64,000 nucleotides of DNA from Desulfobacteraceae bacterium. GTDB taxonomy: Bacteria; Desulfobacterota; Desulfobacteria; Desulfobacterales; Desulfosalsimonadaceae. The DNA is taken from contig JABZFM010000019.1 in NCBI GenBank assembly GCA_014237465.1, forward strand, positions 1-64,000, written 5' to 3'. This document shows positions 1 through 33,185 of the stretch, in pieces. The notes under the pieces were generated by a model. The model did no database searches. It saw nothing but the letters and a program-made list of their open reading frames with translations, and was not told where the DNA came from. The position numbers and the translations under genes are program-made. The stretch's first letter is position 1. Each line of letters starts with the position of its first letter.

Positions 1-129
1 AGCTTCTCTAAGTGTGCCGTCATCAAGTGTTCGGTATTCTGTCTGATCGGACTCCAGTTCACGCGCCAGTGTGGTTTTACCGCTTTGCCTTGGGCCACTC
101 AACAACAGCACGCGTCTTTCAGACATCAT
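1..129 (-). CDS. AAA+ ATPase, DUF4143 type, N-terminal end only
   Basis: The reading frame starts at the ATG read down from position 129 and runs off the window. The visible 43 residues begin MMSERRVLLLSGPRQSGKTT and contain a Walker A motif (GPRQSGKT). This is the typical N-terminus of the ATPase family that carries a C-terminal DUF4143 domain. An in-frame stop shortly upstream rules out a longer start. The gene lies 16 bp after the stop of the 224-residue gene above it, so the two are probably cotranscribed with the nucleotidyltransferase further upstream. Its function is unknown. Two complete relatives lie within the next 6 kb. Confidence 0.7.
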   Translation of the reverse strand, partial: MMSERRVLLLSGPRQSGKTTLARELESDQTEYRTLDDGTLREA

Positions 130-145
130 CTTTTTGATCGTCGTA

Positions 146-820
146 TTAATAATCCATTAATTTCTGTGCGAAACGATGGAGTTCCGGGTTGGCAAGAGCC
201 GATACTTTTTTTTTTACAGAGCGGGAATAATACTCCCTTTCAGTTTTTGTTAAAAGCTCACCATGTAATTTCTTTTTAAACAATTCCTTTTGTTTTGGTG
301 AAAATAATTGAGATAAAGCGTACTCGAGAGACATCTCTTCATGTTTTTCTTTCAGTTGGGTTGTCTTTTTTGCGGCTTGCTCAAAATAATTACTGAACGT
401 TACTTTTAAACGATCAGAGTGAAATCGCATGTTGCCAAGGGAAACAGCATTGTCAAGGGCTAATGAGTTTTTTAATTTTCCCAGGCGAACGATATCGAGA
501 TTCGAGAGTCTTTTTTTTAATTGGTTCGACCATACAAATGACAATCGGTAATAATTGTATAATGCCAGCGACAATAACATCAAATTATGAAAATCTACCT
601 GATCTTTTTTTTGAGTTAAATTTTTTACAACCTGATTATAATCAAAATTATACTGCTCAGCAGCATTTGCCAGCAAAACGGGGAAGCCCTCCCACAACCG
701 CATATCTTTACTTTGAACCACTTCGGCAAGGGTTTTATTAACATCAAAATCATCCCTTGCTTCCATCAGTGCAAAGCCAAGTCGATTTAAACTTTCCAAC
801 AATTCCTTATTTACCACCAA
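146..820 (-). CDS. unrecognised 224-residue partner of the nucleotidyltransferase
   Basis: I do not recognise a named family. The protein is soluble, helical-looking and basic. Its C-terminal third has a conserved-looking stretch, SPKQKELFKKKLHGELLTKT followed by EREYYSRSVKKK and ALANPEL, which I recall from small proteins encoded beside nucleotidyltransferases. The start overlaps the end of the nucleotidyltransferase gene by 14 bp, which implies translational coupling, and a DUF4143 ATPase follows 16 bp downstream. A two-component nucleotidyltransferase unit (toxin-antitoxin-like) is plausible from the layout but not shown by the sequence. Confidence 0.6.
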   Translation of the reverse strand: MVVNKELLESLNRLGFALMEARDDFDVNKTLAEVVQSKDMRLWEGFPVLLANAAEQYNFDYNQVVKNLTQKKDQVDFHNLMLLSLALYNYYRLSFVWSNQLKKRLSNLDIVRLGKLKNSLALDNAVSLGNMRFHSDRLKVTFSNYFEQAAKKTTQLKEKHEEMSLEYALSQLFSPKQKELFKKKLHGELLTKTEREYYSRSVKKKVSALANPELHRFAQKLMDY

Positions 821-1397
821 GACGCTCCTTTTGAATGAGACTAATAAAATGTTCTAAATTCCCGACAATACGTTTTTCTGAAACATCATACTTCGCTAAT
901 TCTTTGAAAGGATGAACGAAATGATTAATATCGATTTTGCCCTTGTACGCATTCACCAGCATCAGACAATCCTCAAAATCAACGCTCGAGCCCCGGAAAA
1001 GTTTGCTGGCGATTAAATCATAATCATTCAAAATACCGATATAGAGATGAGAATACTCTTTCAGTAATATATGATTCCCTTCTTTTAATGGAGATTCCAG
1101 TAATTCCGTTGTATGGATGCGTTTCCCCTGAAATAAGTCAAATATAAACATTTCGCCTTTTCTTTGCCAGCCTGATCCGGTTGTTTGACGATATCCCAAA
1201 TCTTTTAAAATTTTTATTAAATATTTATATTCCTGATCATTGGGGACCATAAAGTCCACATCCTTGGTCGATGGTTTAACATCAAGCAAGGTCAGCGCTG
1301 TTCCTCCGCAGGCAATGAGATGAATCTTACGTTTTAGAAACCCATTCCATTGCTTCAGGACATCCAATAACGCCTGTTTGTTTAGTCGGTATTTCAT
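807..1397 (-). CDS. DUF6036-type nucleotidyltransferase
   Basis: The 196-residue protein carries the polymerase-beta-like nucleotidyltransferase signature: GGTAL at residues 31-35, followed by STKDVDF with the metal-binding pair D46 and D48. The spacing and the following hydrophobic strand match the DUF6036/AbiEii-related group, whose members often act as toxins or defence enzymes. The target is unknown. It is the first gene of an apparent three-gene minus-strand unit and overlaps the second gene by 14 bp. A good sigma70-type promoter and four TTGTAT half-sites lie directly upstream, consistent with autoregulation. The family call is firm; a toxin role is inference. Confidence 0.75.
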   Translation of the reverse strand: MKYRLNKQALLDVLKQWNGFLKRKIHLIACGGTALTLLDVKPSTKDVDFMVPNDQEYKYLIKILKDLGYRQTTGSGWQRKGEMFIFDLFQGKRIHTTELLESPLKEGNHILLKEYSHLYIGILNDYDLIASKLFRGSSVDFEDCLMLVNAYKGKIDINHFVHPFKELAKYDVSEKRIVGNLEHFISLIQKERLGGK

Positions 1398-1458
1398 TGT
1401 ATGAATTTGGTCAACTTATTGTATAAAAATGCTCAAAAAATTGTATTAATATATACAA
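1397..1458. promoter_or_regulatory. array of four TTGTAT half-sites, probable operator
   Basis: TTGTAT occurs at 1397-1402, 1419-1424 and 1441-1446, and its complement ATACAA at 1453-1458. The last two form an inverted repeat with a 6-bp spacer that covers the -10 element of the promoter. Repeated half-sites over a promoter and its leader are typical of autoregulated toxin-antitoxin or regulator genes. No bound protein can be named. Confidence 0.45.
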
Positions 1459-1478
1459 TACTAAATCATACTTGTCAA
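1450..1478 (-). promoter_or_regulatory. sigma70-type promoter of the nucleotidyltransferase unit
   Basis: Read on the minus strand, TTGACA (1478-1473) is followed after exactly 17 bp by TATATA (1455-1450). Transcription would begin near 1443 and leave a leader of about 45 nt before the ATG at 1397. The match to consensus and the spacing are both very good. Confidence 0.6.
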
Positions 1479-1535
1479 GAAACAAAAATAAAAAAGGTTC
1501 AGCAAGATAGGCCTTGCTAAACCCTTTATTTTAGA

Positions 1536-1593
1536 TGGTGCCGGAGGCGAGACTTGAACTCGCACACCATCGCTGGCGGAGGATTTTGAGTCC
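1536..1593 (-). repeat. partial tRNA-Leu copy (3' 58 bp), attachment-site-like
   Basis: This block is identical over 58 bp to the 3' part of the tRNA-Leu gene at 4510-4596 (anticodon arm, variable arm, T arm, acceptor 3' strand and CCA) and then diverges abruptly at 1594. The similarity also continues past the CCA into a diverged copy of the tRNA terminator (1496-1523 against 4471-4498). Such a truncated tRNA end is the usual footprint of site-specific integration into a tRNA gene. It cannot encode a functional tRNA because the 5' third is absent. Confidence 0.85.
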
Positions 1594-1677
1594 CGAAAAT
1601 GAAAATTTCAAATTTTTAACAATTTTAACAACTTGAAATTATTGGAAAAAATTTTTTACTTTTGGTTTTGTTTGGTT

Positions 1678-1740
1678 TTATTTGGAAATGTTTGACCTTG
1701 ACGGGCACAATTTAGGCACAGTTTTGAGTTTGAAAAAATA
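1678..1740 (-). pseudogene. possible integrase C-terminal remnant
   Basis: The minus-strand reading ends in KLKTVPKLCPSRSNISK and a stop, about 85 bp before the truncated tRNA end. Short basic tails of this kind, rich in VP and CP, resemble the ends of tyrosine recombinases. A related sequence reading LCPKLCPSCLKN lies at about 4345-4372. No catalytic residues are present, so this remains a weak interpretation. Confidence 0.2.
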
Positions 1741-1801
1741 GCTACTAAGAAAGTTTACAACCTTGCATATCAGCAAAAAAATGTCATCCTGGATTCTGTT
1801 T

Positions 1802-3001
1802 TTAAAAGTTCCACCAGGAATAGACAGCTGTGTTTTTTTGAAAAAGCGATCGCTTGCCAGCATATATCAAAGCCGCCGGTGCGGACGCTTTTTTGGCCAG
1901 GGTTTTCCAATAATTCAGCCCCTTAAAAAAATCTTTGGCAATGGTCTGAGCGGATTTCACTTCAACCGGTATGAGCTGATTGCCCAAATCAATTATAATA
2001 TCAAGTTCATGCCCTGCTGAATCGCGCCAGAAATAGAGATCCGGATCCATTCCGTCATGAAGCCTTCTTTTTAACAATTCAGCGACAACATAATTTTCAA
2101 ATATGGCACCGCGTGAAGCATGCAATAAAAGATCCTCAGGGCTGCGTATTCTCTGTAAATAGCAAAGAATACCTGTATCGAGGAAATATAGTTTTGGCGA
2201 TTTGACAAGACGTTTGTTAAAATTCTGAAAATGCGGGCGCAGCAAAGTAATGATAAAACCAGTTTCAAGAACAGACAACCATCTTTTAGCTGTTGTATGA
2301 GTTATCCCGCAGTCAGATGCCAGTGAACTTAAATTGAGAAGCTGCCCGGCACGCCCTGCACATAATCCCATGAACCGCCTGAAGGCTTCAAGGTCTCCGA
2401 TGTTTATCAAATCCCGAACATCTCTTTCCAGATATGTTTGGGTATAATTCTTCAGCCATTCCTGAGCGTCGAGCTTCTTATCATGAATGCGAGGATAAAA
2501 CCCTGAAAATAAAAGATCGAATAAATTTGTATTTTTCGGCTCCGGTATTGATAAAATCTCTTGCCCCATATCTTCCAATGGTGGATGGGAAAGTTGCCTC
2601 AGTTCATTAAGGGAAAATGGCAGTAGATGAAAAATTGCACACCTGCCGGCGAGGGTTTGGCTGATATTTTTCATTAAAAGAAAATTTTGGGAACCGGAGA
2701 GGATAAACTGTCCTGGTCGGTCAACCTCATCCACACGGGTCTGGATGTAGGAAAAGAGATCTGGCGTCCGTTGAACTTCATCAAGAATAACACCTTTTTC
2801 CTGGAACTGAGCAAAAAAACCGCGAGGATCTTCCACTGCAAGATGTCTCAGCTCCGGGTCCTCCATTGAAAAGTATTGCATGTCCGGAAACATCGCCCGG
2901 ATAAGGGTAGTTTTACCTGATTGCCTGGGACCAGTGAGAGTAATGACCGGATATTGTTCTGCAGCTTGCCTGATTTTTCTCTCAAGATGCCTTGGTATCA
3001 T
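1802..3001 (-). CDS. AAA+ ATPase with DUF4143 domain
   Basis: The protein has 399 residues, the normal length for the family. Walker A is GPRQSGKT (24-31) and Walker B is VILDE (71-75). The C-terminal DUF4143 part has a PD-(D/E)XK-like pattern, E332-x-D334 followed by E347-V-K349. Members are common in bacteria and archaea and often move horizontally; their biochemical role is not established. The start is supported by TAAGGAT about 8 nt upstream. A 27-bp perfect palindrome lies just before it. The gene sits inside the tRNA-Leu-bracketed segment and is divergent from the gene at 3145. Confidence 0.85.
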   Translation of the reverse strand: MIPRHLERKIRQAAEQYPVITLTGPRQSGKTTLIRAMFPDMQYFSMEDPELRHLAVEDPRGFFAQFQEKGVILDEVQRTPDLFSYIQTRVDEVDRPGQFILSGSQNFLLMKNISQTLAGRCAIFHLLPFSLNELRQLSHPPLEDMGQEILSIPEPKNTNLFDLLFSGFYPRIHDKKLDAQEWLKNYTQTYLERDVRDLINIGDLEAFRRFMGLCAGRAGQLLNLSSLASDCGITHTTAKRWLSVLETGFIITLLRPHFQNFNKRLVKSPKLYFLDTGILCYLQRIRSPEDLLLHASRGAIFENYVVAELLKRRLHDGMDPDLYFWRDSAGHELDIIIDLGNQLIPVEVKSAQTIAKDFFKGLNYWKTLAKKASAPAALIYAGKRSLFQKNTAVYSWWNF

Positions 3002-3013
3002 ATAAAATCCTTA

Positions 3014-3040
3014 CAATTTGAATATTTAATATTCAAATTG
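3014..3040. promoter_or_regulatory. 27-bp perfect palindrome, probable operator
   Basis: CAATTTGAATATT is followed by its exact complement around a single central T (3027). The palindrome lies 13 bp upstream of the ATPase start and in the 143-bp divergent gap to the gene at 3145. A TTGACA-like -35 for the minus strand is at 3063-3058, but no convincing -10 stands at ideal spacing. The site is well placed to control the ATPase, possibly by self-regulation. It is too long and symmetric to be chance. Confidence 0.55.
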
Positions 3041-3144
3041 CATAAAACTAACCCTTTTGTCAATTAAAAAGTTGATACCCATGAATTCATTGCAAATAAT
3101 ACAGACAGACCTCTGGATCTTGGCAAAACAAGAAAACTGACATA

Positions 3145-3552
3145 ATGGCGTATCTGGAAGAACGGGAATCAGAAAATACAAATTATCCCCTGATCAGAAA
3201 ATACTTCAAAAAAGCAGATCCTCACCTTAAAAACCTTTTGTTATTTGGCCTTGATCAATCTCCGACCAGCATGAATCTGTTAAGTGATCTGGCCTATTTC
3301 CATGAATTCAGCAATATCTTAGGCGAGTTGGCTAAACGCTTTATATCCGCTTGCCGACAAGAGTCTGACATCGTGAATTTCAGCGAAATGATTCAGGAGT
3401 TTTATTATTCGACTGAACCTGATGGCTATGATGCCCTTTTTCAATTAAAAGAATTATTCCCTTCAGATACTGAAAAAGGAAAAAATGTTGAGTTTTTTTC
3501 GACGGAATTGATAAAACAAAAAGAAGGGCCGGATGATATTAAATTTTATTAA
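3145..3552 (+). CDS. hypothetical protein, 135 residues
   Basis: I do not recognise this protein. It is predicted soluble and mostly helical, with no cysteine cluster, signal peptide or membrane segment. It begins MAYLEERESENTNYPLIRKY and ends in a charged tail. It is divergent from the DUF4143 ATPase and lies 15 bp before the next gene, so the two are probably cotranscribed. It belongs to the island bracketed by the tRNA-Leu repeats. No Shine-Dalgarno sequence is obvious, so the start is uncertain. Confidence 0.5.
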   Translation: MAYLEERESENTNYPLIRKYFKKADPHLKNLLLFGLDQSPTSMNLLSDLAYFHEFSNILGELAKRFISACRQESDIVNFSEMIQEFYYSTEPDGYDALFQLKELFPSDTEKGKNVEFFSTELIKQKEGPDDIKFY

Positions 3553-3567
3553 GATTTCCTCTCAATT

Positions 3568-4026
3568 TTGATAGAGCAAGCCTTAGCTATGCGGAAAAAG
3601 AAATTCCCGATAATTGATGACCTCGCTGGCAACGCAACAATCAAAATAAACCCCCAGGTCAAAGATCTTCATCCTGTCGTTGAACAGCTTATAATCATGA
3701 TTTCTCATCTTAACTTTATTAATTTTATAAGAATTTCCCCAGAAGATATTCAGGCGTCCAGTGAATTAACCCAAGGCCGGGTTAAAATTCCAATATCTGA
3801 ACAGAATCACCCTACTGCTTCAGGCGTGCATCTAATCATTCATAAAGATTTCAATGATATCCAGTTTTATGAAATTAACTCTGCCGTTAAAGGGCACGGC
3901 GGAAAGATGGTTGACGCAATAATGAAAGCTTTACCAGAAAATTGGAGGGCAACAGTTGTTATGGATTGGAGTCAGGGGTTTTGGGAAAAAATGACAGAAA
4001 AATATAGCAATTTGGAATTGCTGTAA
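3568..4026 (+). CDS. small protein with a GNAT-like C-terminal half
   Basis: The frame opens with TTG at 3568; an ATG at 3589 is an alternative start. The C-terminal half suggests a GNAT acetyltransferase fold: a strand (IQFYEINSAV), then KGHGGKMVDAIMKAL in the place of the acetyl-CoA pyrophosphate loop and helix, then SQGFWEKMTEKY, similar to the common final GNAT helix. The N-terminal half is not recognisable, and the loop departs from the usual RxxGxG/A. A divergent or decayed acetyltransferase is a guess. It follows the 135-residue gene by 15 bp, inside the island. Confidence 0.45.
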   Translation: MIEQALAMRKKKFPIIDDLAGNATIKINPQVKDLHPVVEQLIIMISHLNFINFIRISPEDIQASSELTQGRVKIPISEQNHPTASGVHLIIHKDFNDIQFYEINSAVKGHGGKMVDAIMKALPENWRATVVMDWSQGFWEKMTEKYSNLELL

Positions 4027-4469
4027 TATTCTCAACAGTTCTGTACTTTTGAGAGTCCTGTAACCATGACAATAATTTTTTATTGGCGAAGGAGTTTTAG
4101 CCCCCTGTGTCCAAATTATAAATTTACAACAATTTCAATATGTTAAATAAAGATAAAATTTATATGATTACTTTTAATAATTGCTTAACCTATTGATATT
4201 AAATATTTTTGAATAAAATAAGATTAGAGAGTGCCAGAGGACTTTTTATCCTTTGCTATAAAAGTATTCCTTTACAAAAAATATAACATACTGAAATAGT
4301 GGGGCTAATTTTTTTATATATTTGGCTTTTTCACATTTTTTAAACATGACGGGCACAATTTCGGGCACAGTTTATAAAATTTGGGAAATTTTTTCAAACT
4401 GTCAATCTTGTATAAGCTTAATCAGCAAGCTTTTATAAAGACAGACAGCCTCTAACCTATAAATAAAAA
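4027..4469. other. gene-free stretch inside the island
   Basis: This AT-rich stretch carries no credible coding sequence. The only structure is the pair GGGCACAATTT and GGGCACAGTTT near 4345-4372, shared with the other end of the island (about 1695-1720). It may be the eroded end of a lost integrase gene. Confidence 0.4.
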
Positions 4470-4470
4470 A

Positions 4471-4498
4471 GGTTTAGCAAGAAAATAACCGCTAAACC
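4471..4498 (-). terminator. terminator of tRNA-Leu
   Basis: GGTTTAGC (4471-4478) pairs with GCTAAACC (4491-4498). Read on the minus strand, the hairpin is followed by a run of T. It begins 12 nt after the tRNA 3' end. A diverged copy lies at 1496-1523 beside the truncated tRNA. Confidence 0.6.
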
Positions 4499-4509
4499 CT
4501 TTATATTTA

Positions 4510-4596
4510 TGGTGCCGGAGGCGAGACTTGAACTCGCACACCATCGCTGGCGGAGGATTTTGAGTCCTCTGCGTCTACCAATTCCACCACTCCGGC
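4510..4596 (-). tRNA. tRNA-Leu (anticodon CAA)
   Basis: The 87-nt gene has acceptor strands GCCGGAG/CTCCGGC, a D-loop with GGTAGACGC, anticodon stem AGGA/TCCT around CTCAAAA (anticodon CAA), a long class II variable arm, a T-loop with GTTCAAGTC, and an encoded CCA. It should read UUG codons. The 3' 58 bp are duplicated at 1536-1593, marking it as an integration target. Confidence 0.93.
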
Positions 4597-4990
4597 ACAA
4601 TTTTGTTTTAATTATTGCGTTATTATATCAATTTAAATTGGCTGTCAATAGGCAACCGCTTTAAATGCATGTGAATTATTTCATTCAGTAACTTATTGTT
4701 TTTATACAATTTCTGTGGTCTAACACAGTCCGGCCCGGATGTTCCAGTGAGCAACTTTCATTTTTCCAGCGGCAATTGATTTTCTATTGAAAAATTGTTT
4801 CATGATCCGTCATCCGGCCAAAGGAGGGAATCGACTGCAAGCCGGGATTCAGGAAAAATGATGAAATATTTTTCACTGCGCTGGAAAAGACCGGATAACC
4901 ATAATAAATTCTTTCCTGGGAAGAAGACATCAAGTTTGGAAAGACTCAACTCAAGATAAAGTATTTAAAAGTTTGAAGCATCATTGACCA
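4597..4990. other. intergenic, nothing recognised
   Basis: About 390 bp between the tRNA-Leu 5' end and the regulatory sites of the next ATPase gene. I see no convincing reading frame, tRNA or strong hairpin. It contains the tRNA-Leu promoter by necessity, but I cannot place it with confidence. Confidence 0.4.
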
Positions 4991-4994
4991 AAAT

Positions 4995-5045
4995 GAATCA
5001 AACTTCATAATAGTCTTGACTTTTCTGAAGTTTAATTCATAATAG
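4995..5045 (+). promoter_or_regulatory. promoter with overlapping inverted repeat, probably leaderless
   Basis: TTGACT (5016-5021) and CATAAT (5038-5043) are separated by 16 bp. The -10 ends only 6 bp before the ATG at 5050, and no Shine-Dalgarno sequence is possible, so the mRNA should start at or near the AUG. An inverted repeat, GAATCAAACTTC (4995-5006) and GAAGTTTAATTC (5027-5038), with one mismatch, flanks the -35, and each arm is followed by CATAATAG. This looks like an operator controlling the ATPase gene. Confidence 0.55.
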
Positions 5046-5049
5046 CCAA

Positions 5050-6192
5050 ATGAAAAGATATCTGGAAAAACATATTCAAAAAGACCTGAAAGACAAAATC
5101 ATACTCTTGTCAGGGCCAAGGCAGGTTGGAAAAACAACGCTCTCAAAACAGCTGGAACTCTCGAATGTTTATATGAACTTTGACGCAACGACTGATCGCA
5201 AGCTCATTTATGCTCAAGAATGGGATAGAGAGGTCCAGTTGGTGATTTTTGACGAACTCCATAAGATGAAAAAATGGAAGGCGTGGATTAAAGGCGTATA
5301 CGACACCGAAGGGATTCCCCCTTCATTGCTCGTTGCCGGTTCAGCCAGGCTGGATACTTATAAAAAAGGCGGGGAATCTCTGGCAGGACGCTTTTACGCT
5401 TATCGACTGCACCCGTTATCGGTTAAGGAAATTTGCAGTTTCCAAAAAGAAAATTCAAAAACTGCTTTGGATAATTTAATCAAGTTCGGCGGTTTTCCGG
5501 AACCATATTTCAAAAACAGCGAAAAATTTGCAAAGCGCTGGCGAAGGATACACACAGATACAATTATCAGGGAAGATCTGCTGGATCTGGAACGTGTCCG
5601 GGATATCAAATCCATTGAACTCCTGATCGATCTTTTAAGAACCCGCGTGGGATCGACAACATCGTATACCTTACTGGCAAATGACCTGCAGGTATCAATC
5701 CATACGATAAAACACTGGTTACAGATTCTTGAAAATATGTATATTGTTTTTCCTGTTCGCCCGTATCACAAAAATATTGCGCGCAGTCTTTTAAAAGAAT
5801 CAAAATATTATTTGTATGACACCGGTGCCGTTCAGGGAGATATTGGCGCAAAGCTTGAAAATACAGTTGCCTGTGCGCTTCTGAAAGAACTGCATTTTAT
5901 TGAGGACACCACCGGCAGCAACGTTGCGCTTCACTATTTAAGAGACAAAGAAAAACATGAAGTTGATTTTCTGATTTTAATAGACAAGAAGCCTGTAATG
6001 ATGATTGAAGTCAAGGTTTCTGATGATCGGTTTTCCCCTTCCCTGTTTCGGTTTCAGCGATTTTTAAAAGATGCTGCCCCTGTTCAGATTGTCCATGGCT
6101 TGAAACAAAAAAAATCAAAAGGCCCTGCGATCATGCGGTCTGCTCATGAATTCTTAATGGAATTACGTCTCGATTTTACACAAATGGTATAG
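5050..6192 (+). CDS. AAA+ ATPase with DUF4143 domain
   Basis: The 380-residue protein has Walker A GPRQVGKT (22-29), Walker B VIFDE (65-69) and a C-terminal DUF4143 domain with a nuclease-like E304-V-D306 and E320-V-K322. It belongs to the same family as the 1802-3001 protein but is clearly divergent from it. The role is unknown. It is a single gene on the plus strand with its own promoter and inverted repeat, and it appears to be translated from a leaderless transcript. It lies outside the tRNA-bracketed segment, on the other side of tRNA-Leu. Confidence 0.85.
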   Translation: MKRYLEKHIQKDLKDKIILLSGPRQVGKTTLSKQLELSNVYMNFDATTDRKLIYAQEWDREVQLVIFDELHKMKKWKAWIKGVYDTEGIPPSLLVAGSARLDTYKKGGESLAGRFYAYRLHPLSVKEICSFQKENSKTALDNLIKFGGFPEPYFKNSEKFAKRWRRIHTDTIIREDLLDLERVRDIKSIELLIDLLRTRVGSTTSYTLLANDLQVSIHTIKHWLQILENMYIVFPVRPYHKNIARSLLKESKYYLYDTGAVQGDIGAKLENTVACALLKELHFIEDTTGSNVALHYLRDKEKHEVDFLILIDKKPVMMIEVKVSDDRFSPSLFRFQRFLKDAAPVQIVHGLKQKKSKGPAIMRSAHEFLMELRLDFTQMV

Positions 6193-6406
6193 TGACTCAT
6201 TATTTTTGCAATAAAAAACGACTCTTTACAATCGCCATATCTATTGATAGTATTCAATCAATTGTAGCGGATTAGGTCAACATTGGTTTGTCCATCTTCC
6301 CGATGTATAAATTGGCGATTCAACTTTAAAGACTATCCATCAGTGCGTGTATTGCCATGTCTTATTGACGGGCGGGACGATAAATACGTTAACAGAGGAG
6401 ACCAAC

Positions 6407-6457
6407 ATGCCTGCTGACTATGAAATTGATGCAAGAGGAGAATGGTATGAAGTATGA
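6407..6457 (+). CDS. 16-codon leader peptide, possibly a TusA remnant
   Basis: An ATG with a strong AGAGGAG 9 nt upstream opens a 16-residue frame, MPADYEIDARGEWYEV, whose end overlaps the start of the ferredoxin gene by 11 bp. The overlap could couple translation of the two. The segment DYEIDARG resembles the N-terminus of TusA/SirA sulfur carriers (xYxLDARGxxCP), but the Cys-Pro part is missing. It may be a decayed tusA start or a chance frame. No expression evidence can be drawn from sequence. Confidence 0.35.
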   Translation: MPADYEIDARGEWYEV

Positions 6458-6683
6458 ACTTATCTACGTCCAGGAAGACTGCTCGGGATGTCTTCGCTGT
6501 CAGTTGGCCTGTTCACGGGCATATGCCAAATGTTTCCAGCCATCTGCAGCCCGCATCAAAATTGAGACCCGAGGAGCAGAATACCGGGTAGCTTTCACGG
6601 AAGATTGCGTGGAATGCGGGTTTTGTGCTGATAACTGTTTATTCGGCGCGCTCACCAAGCGCCCCAGGGAGGTGGCGGCATGA
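6447..6683 (+). CDS. small 2[4Fe-4S] ferredoxin of the AOR pair
   Basis: The start chosen is the ATG at 6447, which has AGAGGAG 8 nt upstream, giving 78 residues. Two cluster motifs are present: C12-x2-C15-x2-C18-x3-C22 and C54-x2-C57-x2-C60-x3-C64. Small ferredoxins of this type are encoded directly before tungsten aldehyde oxidoreductases and pass electrons to or from the enzyme. The stop overlaps the ATG of the next gene by 4 bp, supporting one operon and a functional pair. Cytoplasmic. An upstream ATG would add nine residues but lacks a comparable ribosome site. Confidence 0.85.
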   Translation: MKYELIYVQEDCSGCLRCQLACSRAYAKCFQPSAARIKIETRGAEYRVAFTEDCVECGFCADNCLFGALTKRPREVAA

Positions 6684-8467
6684 TCGGAGGAGGATTTGCC
6701 GGACGGATTCTGCATGTGGATCTGAGTGAACAACGGATATGGACCGTGCCTTTAGACGAAACGCTTGCCAGGGATTATGTGGGCGGTTTGGGGGTTTGCA
6801 TCAAGCTGGCTTATGACCTGATTCCCCACGGTGTGGATCCGCTATCTCCGGAAAGCGTGTTCGTTCTGGGCGTTGGCCCTTTGGTGGGAACGGATCTGCC
6901 ATCATCATCGCGCATGTACGCGGTGGCCAGGCTGCCGGCCAGCGGGACCGTGGGTTGGTGCGGCGCAGGCGGGTATTCCTTTGGCGCACAGTTAAAGTAC
7001 GCGGGATATGATCATATTATCGTCTCCGGTATGGCTGACAAGCCCGTATACATAAATATCGAAGATGACCGGGTCGACATCCGGGACGCAGATGCCCTGT
7101 GGGGGCTGGGCATAGACGAAACATGTGAGTCGGTCTACAGGGCTCATGATGCGCAGGCTGGCGTGATAGCCATCGGGCCGGCGGGTGAAAACAAATCCAC
7201 AATTGCCATGGCGTTCGTGGATCGTATTTCCACCCTGGGCCGGGGCGGTTTCGGCGCAGTCATGGGAGTAAAAAATTTAAAAGCCATTGTGGTTCGGGGG
7301 ACCGGGGGGGTGAAGGTGGCTGACCGGAAGCGCTTTAACAAACTCAGCCGTTCGCTGCTCAATTCTGTTCGGGAATACAAATATCTCAAAGAATGGCAGG
7401 ACCTGGGGATGCTTAAAGCTTTTCCCATGGTCCCGGTTGATGTATATAAGCGCATGAAAGAAAGGCGGACGGCCTGTGTGTCCTGCCCCGTAGGGTGCAA
7501 GGAAGTGGTTCGCATTCCGGACGGTCCGTTTGCCGGGCTGGTCAAGCACACCAGCTCAGCTCTTAATCTGTTTACGCCCATGATGTACGGCATGAAAGAC
7601 CCATGGGAAGCCGTAAAACTGATTGCCGATCTTGATACTTACGGTATGGATATGTTCGAGTTTTTTGGCCTGATGGAAATGGCCCGAGAGCTGGCAGCCT
7701 CCGGAGTGATCGCTCTTGCGCCCGAAGAACCGGAGATCGATTTAACGTCTCTTCCTTCCATGGCGGCCTGGGCCGAAAAGATCGCCCGGCGCCAGGGAAC
7801 GGGAGATCTCCTGGCAGACGGATTTACCGCGGTAATGGAAAAACTGGGGCCTGAAGCCAAACAACATGCGCCGGCGCTTATCAAGGGCATACATCCGTAC
7901 GCCGGCCCGGGAGCGGCACTGCCCTGGGATCGATTCGGAACCATGGAACTGGGGCAGGTACTGGACCCGCGGGGCCCTCACGTGGGATCAGGCGGATCAC
8001 CGACCTATTTTGCGGTACGCCCGCTGGAGGTATTTCCAAAGCATTTAAAACGGATGGGCGTTCCGGAAGATGCTGTGGATGGCATCCTTGGGCCTGATCG
8101 GAACAAGCTGCGTGTGGGGCGGCTCCTGCGGTATTCCCATGCCTGGTTTGCCATGCTGGGGTCTTTGGGTATTTGCGCCCGGGGACAGGTGAACCGATTC
8201 TACAATGCCGATCTTTGCGCTGAAGCTTATGAGGCCGCCACAGGAATCCCCACGTCGACAGACGATCTCCGAAAACGGGTCGACCGGGTCTGGACCACGT
8301 TTCGAGAATTAAACATCCGGGAAGGCTTGGATGCTTCAAAGGAAGCCCTGCCCGATCAATGGTTTAAGGAACCCGGATTCAAGGAGTATCTTACCGGCGA
8401 ACCCCTGACCAAAGAACAGGCTGAAGAAATGAAAAGAGAATATTTTGATGAGTGGGGATGGGAGTGA
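6680..8467 (+). CDS. aor: aldehyde:ferredoxin oxidoreductase family tungsten enzyme
   Basis: The 595-residue protein matches the AOR family over its full length. The N-terminal domain begins GGFAGRILHVDLS and contains SSRMYAVARLPASGTVGWCG. The [4Fe-4S] motif is C266-x2-C269-x3-C273, with a further conserved-region cysteine in LGICARGQVNRF near the C-terminus. These enzymes oxidise aldehydes, or in reverse reduce carboxylates, using a tungsten bis-pterin cofactor and ferredoxin. The substrate cannot be read from sequence. The preceding ferredoxin gene overlaps by 4 bp. This block is noticeably richer in GC than its neighbours and sits beside accessory DNA, so it may have been acquired. Confidence 0.85.
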   Translation: MIGGGFAGRILHVDLSEQRIWTVPLDETLARDYVGGLGVCIKLAYDLIPHGVDPLSPESVFVLGVGPLVGTDLPSSSRMYAVARLPASGTVGWCGAGGYSFGAQLKYAGYDHIIVSGMADKPVYINIEDDRVDIRDADALWGLGIDETCESVYRAHDAQAGVIAIGPAGENKSTIAMAFVDRISTLGRGGFGAVMGVKNLKAIVVRGTGGVKVADRKRFNKLSRSLLNSVREYKYLKEWQDLGMLKAFPMVPVDVYKRMKERRTACVSCPVGCKEVVRIPDGPFAGLVKHTSSALNLFTPMMYGMKDPWEAVKLIADLDTYGMDMFEFFGLMEMARELAASGVIALAPEEPEIDLTSLPSMAAWAEKIARRQGTGDLLADGFTAVMEKLGPEAKQHAPALIKGIHPYAGPGAALPWDRFGTMELGQVLDPRGPHVGSGGSPTYFAVRPLEVFPKHLKRMGVPEDAVDGILGPDRNKLRVGRLLRYSHAWFAMLGSLGICARGQVNRFYNADLCAEAYEAATGIPTSTDDLRKRVDRVWTTFRELNIREGLDASKEALPDQWFKEPGFKEYLTGEPLTKEQAEEMKREYFDEWGWE

Positions 8468-8520
8468 TGAAAGAACATAAGGAACTTCTATTTATTACGG
8501 TCTTTTTACAGGATCATCAA

Positions 8521-11955: not shown

Positions 11956-12465
11956 TTAATTCAGCAGCGATTTTTTCACCTGATTATATTCTTCAAGGGT
12001 TATCAGGTTCTTTTCCAGCATGCGGGCAAGTTCCATCAACTCTCTTAACCGCCTGGAATCCGGATCCTCTAACTGGCGGGATACCGGCATTGCATCACTT
12101 TCGATCACCCGTGGATCTCTCGTATCTCTGGCTATTTTAAAAGAGGCAAGGCCGCCGAGTAAATTGACTTCAACGTTTTTTCCTTTTAATTCGGGCAGCG
12201 ACAGGATTTTTAAAAACGCTGTGCCGCCTTCTTTTTTCATATAGCGATAAAGCAGGTAAACGGATCCTGAGATAAGGCCGCTACCGACTAAAAAAACCCA
12301 GAAAATATAATTGACAATTCCGCTGAAAAATAAAACCAGTATCCCGAGTCCGGCCAGCAGAATTACGTGAAAAATCAGAATTGACGACGCCAGAATCAGG
12401 CTGTTTGTGATATTCGTTATTTCACTGTTTTTTTTAAACATTTTTTCCAATTTGCCTGAATGCAT
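11956..12465 (-). CDS. two-TM membrane protein with SHOCT domain
   Basis: This 169-residue protein has two hydrophobic segments (about 22-47 and 50-73) and a C-terminal SHOCT-type motif, LMELARMLEKNLITLEEYNQ, near residues 140-165. SHOCT is a short helical pair found at the ends of many unrelated proteins and thought to mediate oligomerisation. The middle part is a short beta-rich region. I cannot assign a function. It is the first gene of the run leading into ddl. Confidence 0.6.
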   Translation of the reverse strand: MHSGKLEKMFKKNSEITNITNSLILASSILIFHVILLAGLGILVLFFSGIVNYIFWVFLVGSGLISGSVYLLYRYMKKEGGTAFLKILSLPELKGKNVEVNLLGGLASFKIARDTRDPRVIESDAMPVSRQLEDPDSRRLRELMELARMLEKNLITLEEYNQVKKSLLN

Positions 12466-12542
12466 AAGCAGCCTAACACATCATAACTGCTCTTCAGGAT
12501 TTCATCCGTTAAATATGATAGCCCCGCAAAAAATCAGATTCC

Positions 12543-12667
12543 GACGGCAAAGTATAAAAATTCAAATTCAAGGCGCGCAAATCCTGAGCAATGATTCGTA
12601 CTTTTCGTACTATGAAGCAGCGAAGGATGCAGCGCAACGCCGAAGTTGGATTTTTTACGAAGCCGTC
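12543..12667. repeat. GATGGC-ended intergenic repeat, family II copy 1
   Basis: This 125-bp element matches the 125-bp element at 42161-42285 in inverted orientation along its whole length. The ends read GACGGC and GCCGTC. Shared internal blocks include AAGGCGCGCAAATCCTGAG against AAGGCGCACAAATTCTGAG, and GCGTTGCGCTGCATCC against TGTTGCACTGCATTCC on the opposite strand. It has no coding potential and lies in the gap below the DUF1992 gene. Confidence 0.75.
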
Positions 12668-12683
12668 AAATATGTATTTCATT

Positions 12684-32769: not shown

Positions 32770-33185
32770 GATTCAGCCGCTCCGCTGTTTTCATTAATTC
32801 CAGTTATATCGACATAATCTTCGACAGATATCCGCTCAGCACTCGCCCAGAAGCCCTCCAGATCATAAAATTCCCGCACCGACTCCAGAAACACATGAAC
32901 CAGTATGTGGCCATAGTCCAGCAGGACCCAATGACCGTCTTTAAGGCCTTCAACACTGATGGGTGCGATGCCGTTTTTTTTCAAATCCATTTTTATATGT
33001 TCGGCAATAGCGGTGACCTGCCGGTTTGATTTACCGGAACATATCAGAAATACATCCGTAAACGATGTCTGCGCCCTGACATCCAGAATTAAAAGATCCC
33101 TCGCTTTTCTGCCCAACGCGGCTTTAATAAAATATTGTATCGATGGATCTAATACGTCCGATGGATTTAATACGTCGGGGGTCAT
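32766..33185 (-). CDS. rsfS: ribosomal silencing factor RsfS
   Basis: The 139-residue protein binds L14 on the large subunit and blocks subunit joining in starvation. The family core is clear: DVRAQTSFTDVFLICSGKSN, then VEGLKDGHWVLLDYGHILVHVF and the FYDLEGFW end. The N-terminus has a short extension containing two imperfect copies of LNPSDVLDPS-like sequence. It overlaps nadD and gpmI by 4 bp on each side, indicating tight coupling. Confidence 0.92.
   Translation of the reverse strand: MTPDVLNPSDVLDPSIQYFIKAALGRKARDLLILDVRAQTSFTDVFLICSGKSNRQVTAIAEHIKMDLKKNGIAPISVEGLKDGHWVLLDYGHILVHVFLESVREFYDLEGFWASAERISVEDYVDITGINENSGAAES

Follow-up and report, generated by a model that had tools for sequence, protein, structure and literature searches.

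Cis-mobilizable elements (CIMEs) are described, in the passages of PMC5704250 devoted to them, as decayed integrative and conjugative or integrative and mobilizable elements (ICEs or IMEs) that accrete beside other elements. For Dehalococcoides, the sections of PMC3146451 on the ssrA gene report 15 islands without an integration module. Here, we examine the window, a stretch of 64,000 bases (bases 1-64000 of contig 31) from the genome of a Desulfobacteraceae bacterium (G000; 5.09 Mb, 70 contigs, 99.96% complete), in which a small block of genes lies behind the 3' end of a tRNA-Leu gene and contains no integrase gene. We consider this block very probably to be the integrase-less derivative of a tyrosine integrase family that is described below (G, C, and L numbers are our handles for genomes, contigs, and loci).

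Like a CIME in those passages, the window unit has kept attL and attR at the end of its target gene and has no integration or transfer genes (transfer being judged from its three cargo open reading frames, ORFs), and units of its kind are stacked; however, many of them measure about 1 kb and hold a single module, and one of these stands at different positions behind tRNA-Phe. The ssrA islands of PMC3146451 are similar, in the sections mentioned, in lying in tandem downstream of one RNA gene and in being separated by copies of its 3' end, but they have a serine recombinase, a T-loop site, 20-bp repeats, and rdhA cargo, whereas the window family has tyrosine integrase arms, a break in the anticodon stem, and toxin-antitoxin (TA)-type or defence-like cargo. 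Tycheposons and the tRNA-repeat "additive" islands, in the parts of PMC10872708 that deal with them, share the integration at tRNA genes and the recurring tRNA-end repeats; tycheposons, however, have a tyrosine recombinase, of which there is none beside the tRNA in the window unit, and measure 4-200 kb, in contrast to the small units without recombinase found here. Integron cassettes and the clusters of attC sites lacking integron-integrases (CALIN) likewise are, in the relevant sections of PMC11389934, short units with a recombination site that form arrays without an integrase. The site of the present units differs in consisting of a tRNA 3' part plus integrase arms beside a tRNA gene. Integrons, too, carry TA cargo. 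In the accessible portions of the open-licence literature, we found no description of TA cassette arrays at tRNA genes in the Desulfobacterales; what seems to be new is the covarying pair of arms, the location of one arm within the last codons of the integrase, and the stacking of single-module TA units at tRNA genes.

ARAGORN recognises a single tRNA-Leu(CAA) in the window, the intact attachment gene at 4510..4596 on the minus strand. Its 3' part forms the right attachment repeat of 59 bp (4509..4567, minus strand; core GGATTTTGAGTCC at 4555-4567), and this recurs without a single difference (59/59) as a cut-off tRNA-Leu 3' part at the far end, the left attachment repeat (1535..1593, minus strand); the two enclose 2,974 bp. 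A sequence-only reading of this DNA had noted 58 identical bases up to the CCA and a break in the anticodon arm, and this description holds: the perfect repeat comprises 58 bases of the tRNA 3' part plus one base past the CCA, and it breaks off within the anticodon stem, on its 5' strand, at position 30 of the 87-base tRNA. The absence of any difference within the repeat makes the insertion look recent. Behind each copy lies a terminator on the minus strand, a stem-loop with a T tail, at 4467..4502 for the intact tRNA (z score -5.6; element-borne by our model) and at 1492..1527 for the cut-off copy (z score -4.7; on the chromosomal side by our model). At 81% identity to each other, they are the diverged terminator that the same reading had attributed to both repeats. 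Its mention of a common motif near both ends is equally accurate, as GGGCACA twin motifs lie inside both ends at 1703-1721 and 4351-4370.

The left of these twins, GGGCACAATTTAGGCACAG (1703..1721, plus strand, period 11), belongs to a conserved far end of about 130 bp that we call end A, the P arm of the element (1594..1722, minus strand), which matches with 92 bits a sequence model built from 13 aligned end A sequences. Under strict filters, this model detects end A in at least 60 of the 291 order genomes searched. Of 54 end A sites, 37 adjoin a 3' part that could be recognised as coming from tRNA-Leu, -Arg, or -Phe, and in 32 of these 37 it begins at tRNA position 29-33; the other 17, some at contig ends, have no recognised tRNA part. 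Within the window's own genome, end A is joined to three more tRNA-Leu halves, on C67 (100% over 59 bases), C42 (93% over 55), and C39 (88% over 57, the best match in the tRNA set); C42 carries another end A without a recognised tRNA half. The sequence stretches examined around the sites on C67, C42, and C39 hold no intact tRNA, and a half tRNA-Leu away from the intact gene, again adjoining end A, lies on contig C495 of G002. Half copies apart from an intact tRNA-Leu, which might have spoken against an insertion, do occur, but with end A beside them they look like element ends rather than chance copies. An exact 29-base pattern of end A occurs in 38 stretches among 84,980 species genomes, 36 of them titled Desulfobacterota/delta or Proteobacteria (two Desulfobulbaceae). 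The remaining two stretches (L259, L279) are titled archaeon and Parcubacteria; these contigs may be misbinned, or end A may have been widely transferred. In viral contigs, a 23-base pattern of end A had no exact counterpart, and thus no viral carrier was seen, a looser search not having been made. All this bears on the possibility that no integrase was involved and that the tRNA 3' end was copied by segmental duplication or homologous recombination. The repeat itself would fit such an event, and nothing else does: the break in the anticodon stem, the presence of end A beside broken halves of different tRNAs in many genomes, and conserved arms whose motifs agree between both ends all contradict it, and we regard it as extremely improbable.

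The right, or P', twin, GGGCACAATTTCGGGCACAG (4351..4370, plus strand, period 12), lies in the frame TGTISGTV, a relic of an integrase C-terminus. When the window's own genome was searched for the double motif with up to two mismatches, six matches were obtained, of which only that at 4351 is exact, against none for a reversed-pattern control. The 20 bases of 4351-4370 recur unchanged at the end of an integrase gene in G119 (L074), with the window frame MTGTISGTVYK corresponding to QAQTGTISGTVTK in L074; in G052, which belongs to another family, the C-terminal part of the integrase, with TGTILGTIV encoded by GGGCACAATTTTGGGCACA at its end, abuts tRNA-Leu(TAA). This tyrosine integrase C-terminus was found in 26 of 146 genomes of the order, and a tRNA gene is present in 25 of the 30 loci returned. 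By sequence, the window's integrase gene is gone and its predicted arm-site codons are left. One could instead view the right twin as a second, decayed end A, so that the window would hold two units of about 2.6 and 0.3 kb. The end A model does give a match of 31 bits (E 1e-8) at 4260-4370, and two copies of end A 268 bp apart exist in G150 (G150:C1:5517468-5517856, L123), between two large stacked elements, where the pair is possibly a unit with almost no cargo. The period of the right twin is the one seen in 12 of 16 integrase ends, as opposed to 11 in all 13 end A rows, but 4 of the 16 integrase ends also have period 11 and the period is not decisive. The 20 bases shared with the integrase end of L074, which read TGTISGTV, and the lack of a tRNA part behind the right twin leave this reading little credit.

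A single integrase that binds both twins would be expected to make them change together. In all eight elements with both arms (the window, G119, G062, G052, G045, and three in G150), the P and P' twins agree, although the motif itself varies, being GTGCC in four elements, GTAAC in two, GTGGC in one, and ATGCC in one. G062 is a weaker case of an element, since neither a tRNA nor a tRNA part was recognised there, and G104 was excluded from the comparison because only one half is readable on its P' side. We call the twins predicted integrase arm sites. Their agreement despite the variation of the motif leads us to derive the window block from the integrase family, and the observed basis for this is the attachment repeats, the two arm motifs, the matching integrase family elsewhere, and the absence of the integrase gene here. 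The integration footprint without an integrase, as first proposed, is upheld, and the arm sites now name the family of the missing enzyme. Complete members of this family exist. In L126 (G119), an autonomous element of 10.4 kb, tRNA-Leu(CAA) at 2047-2134 is followed by a 375-aa integrase frame at 2160-3284 and, at 12344, by the end A twin with a tRNA-Leu part behind it, an end A recognised by its motif and not by the profile at the threshold used. The order tRNA, integrase, end A, tRNA part is also that of the elements in G045 (48.5 kb) and G150 (about 47 kb).

How the block came to be without an integrase is a separate question. An integrase profile built from nine integrases, which yields E<1e-197 in G119, G150, G045, and G062, gave no match at E<=1e-25 in any of the 36 genomes from the window's family, its own genome included, and none at E<=1e-4 in window positions 1-6000; an integrase gene abutting the tRNA 3' end is absent from the window unit and from its own genome at the thresholds used. 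The integrase is present in 24 of the 60 end A-bearing genomes and absent from 36. The window's genus (11 genomes) has many end A copies and no such integrase, and genus g17 has 21 copies in 8 genomes and an integrase in none of them (E<=1e-25; fragmented metagenome-assembled genomes). The block may thus be a non-autonomous "tRNA cassette" that arrived without an integrase and was moved in trans, our preferred reading, to which we give slightly less than an even chance; the recent repeats, the two genera rich in ends but devoid of integrase, and the stacked small units described below speak for it. The integrase of a larger element would bind, in trans, the twins of both arms, the cores in the anticodon stem would recombine, and a circle would insert into tRNA-Leu. 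As the circle would supply its own tRNA 3' part (hence that of the intact gene at 4510-4596) and terminator, the tRNA would stay functional, while the old 3' part and its terminator would be displaced to the far end. Insertion after insertion would pile up blocks at the tRNA. The last integrase codons would double as the P' arm site, and a defence-like (PDC-S01 candidate) or, often, TA-type cargo would aid the persistence of such a small block.

Small units were delimited from 89 and 41 end A hits (overlapping sets) as stretches bounded by a tRNA gene or part and, at the opposite side, by end A. This gave 17 units of 0.7-5 kb: the window, L047, L050, L051, two in L198, two in L199/L265, L201, L221, L228, L231, L237, L217/L264, L260, L273, and L275; in L217 and the longer L199/L265 unit, the tRNA part behind end A is missing or short. 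The sequences covered about 7-12 kb on the element side and many contigs stop before that, which leaves most large units out of the set and biases it towards small sizes. Integrase homology (E<=1e-4) was found in one of the 17, a 92-aa relic in L275; units with an integrase are L126 (10.4 kb), L045 (8.0 kb, truncated gene), and L201 (12.2 kb, truncated gene). Pfam reveals clear TA-type families in 9 of the 17 small units, with both partners in L047, both L198 units, L201 (AbiEi/AbiEii), L217, and L228, and the toxin-type partner only in L050, L260, and L265 (DUF5615/PIN_10); L237, L273, and L221 have weak or relic-like matches, and the window, L051, the shorter L199 unit, L231, and L275 stand outside these groups. 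As a control, we considered the 5' side of the tRNA in nine loci, where 31 ORFs lie within 2.5 kb, and the 18 that were scanned include no TA family. The named ones are mostly housekeeping genes (PurD/E, Sua5, RsmE-type methyltransferase, Maf, QueH), in addition to one DUF4143 (window) and one phage integrase (L047). Beyond the units, on the far side, TA-type genes appear again in L050, L201, and L273 and weakly in L047. Short units favour short genes, however, and the contrast with the 5' side is suggestive only. The phage integrase of L047 (L047:5777-6739, in G005) is of a different kind; a gap of 67 bp separates the end of its gene from the 5' end of the same tRNA-Leu, which therefore has mobile DNA on both sides.

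The stacking is clearest in L198 (G213), where tRNA-Phe is followed by a Phd/PIN unit, end A, and a perfect tRNA-Phe part, then by a Phd/ParE unit, end A, and another perfect part, and finally by HigB/HigA-like ORFs (by eye). Over 176 bp, its two copies of end A with their tRNA parts share 99.4% identity, although the cargo differs. Tandem small units with 100% tRNA halves occur in L198 and L199, and in L201 a 1.8-kb AbiE unit is stacked beyond the 12.2-kb unit with its integrase relic. Behind tRNA-Phe, the Phd/ParE unit is second in L198 and first in L217, a locus from another family in which its genes and the end A behind them are 80% identical over 864 aligned bases (80% in L200, 76% in L211). 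By eye, an inverted P'-like twin can be seen behind tRNA-Phe in the first L198 unit (L198:4298-4320), and L237 and L199 contain an alignable stretch that resembles it.

Loss of the integrase in place, which is how CIMEs arise according to the same passages of PMC5704250, is almost as likely as movement in trans, and falls likewise just short of an even chance. A complete element would have inserted, and its integrase and other genes would then have been deleted, leaving the attachment ends, the last codons, and a few cargo genes, with TA genes being kept because their loss harms the cell. Integrase remnants of several sizes are in line with this (a 164-aa frame in L045, 108 aa in L201, and the 92 aa of L275), as is the retention of the end codons only in the window and L273. 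Several further points weigh against trans movement. Contig C28 of the window's own genome has two integrase C-terminus relics, GTITNFGLSKK with GGACACAATTTTAGGCACAA (G000:C28:358-377 and 32816-32835; L012, L013), which suggest that the lineage, to judge from these remnants, once had the integrase gene; a tRNA-Asp-like 3' part and a 3' end like that of transfer-messenger RNA lie near the first (both by eye). Just 3 of the 17 small units (window, L273, L275) have a clear P' twin no more than 260 bp from the tRNA part, so most of them may not be full substrates, and the distance from P' twin to CCA, 59-92 bp in 16 integrase loci, is 141 bp in the window. No mobiliser was found in the window's own genome, only 18 of the 36 family genomes reach 90% completeness with no more than 5% contamination, and weaker tyrosine recombinases do occur in the genus (8e-24 in G000, 9e-23 in G004), that of G000 being a 435-aa ORF on C32 in a 3.7-kb locus without a tRNA. 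In L050, the Phd/ParE genes stand behind the end A of another unit without one of their own, and inheritance with loss could also account for the distribution of the Phd/ParE unit, since four of its five genomes are of genus g17. No clean empty tRNA-Leu site turned up; the region downstream of tRNA-Leu in G009 has no counterpart in the window's own genome (contig edge). Decay in place, in turn, has to contend with a 59/59 repeat that looks recent, yet comes with no full integrase gene in the unit or in the 36 family genomes, with the 21 end A copies of genus g17, and with the near identity of the L198 ends around different cargo. No ancestor with the same cargo plus an integrase was found.

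The cargo had been read as a DUF4143 ATPase plus two unrecognised genes, and searches of Pfam, NCBIfam, and PADLOC agree. The AAA_14/DUF4143 ATPase (1802..3001, minus strand; Pfam E 5e-50) matches PADLOC PDC-S01 (E 2e-110), a candidate (untested) defence family, and the rest of the window cargo is two ORFs of no family. These are 135 aa (3145..3552, plus strand) and 152 aa (3568..4026, plus strand, TTG start) in length, and neither matches Pfam, NCBIfam, or PADLOC at E<=0.01. The latter has a 54% identical homologue in G217 (L296:794-1381), which adjoins an AbiGi-like ORF (by eye); its predicted structure, from two sequences, has a mean predicted local distance difference test score of 45 and is unusable. 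A degraded DUF4143 gene also lies near end A on C67, and at the same tRNA in G007 an 86% identical DUF4143 gene lies at most 0.7 kb from end A.

To the left of position 1535, accessory DNA runs to the window start, which is the contig end. It includes a DUF6036 nucleotidyltransferase gene (807..1397, minus strand; weak AbiEii match), an overlapping 224-aa ORF without family (146..820, minus strand), and the start of a P-loop ATPase-like gene (by eye; 1..147, minus strand), cut by the contig break and 99% identical to the end of contig C42. Joining C42 to the window was rejected, the common stretch of 147 bp (99%) being, by its orientation, a shared repeat and not a join. The DUF6036 gene and the 224-aa ORF are consistent with an older stacked unit, and this pair, together with the further copies of the same end in the genome, supports the stacking that had been suspected below 1536. 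Distant genera with an identical gene order, which would have told against an island, were not observed; within the genus, the genomes compared differ in what lies downstream, to a degree that prevents alignment. At 4600-8500, between the tRNA and Sua5/PurD-type genes that adjoin tRNA-Leu in G009, the window holds another DUF4143 gene and two ORFs, one resembling a ferredoxin and the other, by eye, an aldehyde ferredoxin oxidoreductase. A dispersed repeat at 12509-12676 occurs also on C67 and on G002 contigs.

In its broadest form, which we think unlikely though worth stating, the proposal would be that the Desulfobacterales have an integron-like cassette system on their tRNA genes. One integrase family would serve a large number of cassettes that lack an integrase, measure about 1 kb, and often consist of one TA or defence module. 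Each bounded by a tRNA 3' part and a conserved 130-bp arm, they would enter the genes of tRNA-Leu, -Phe, and -Arg serially and would pass in trans from lineage to lineage. Conserved and covarying as they are, the arm sites provide a DNA signature for integrase-less elements that are invisible to searches starting from the integrase gene. If the cassettes do move in trans, then tRNA genes would be capture platforms for single TA or defence genes, a tyrosine-integrase parallel to the integrons.

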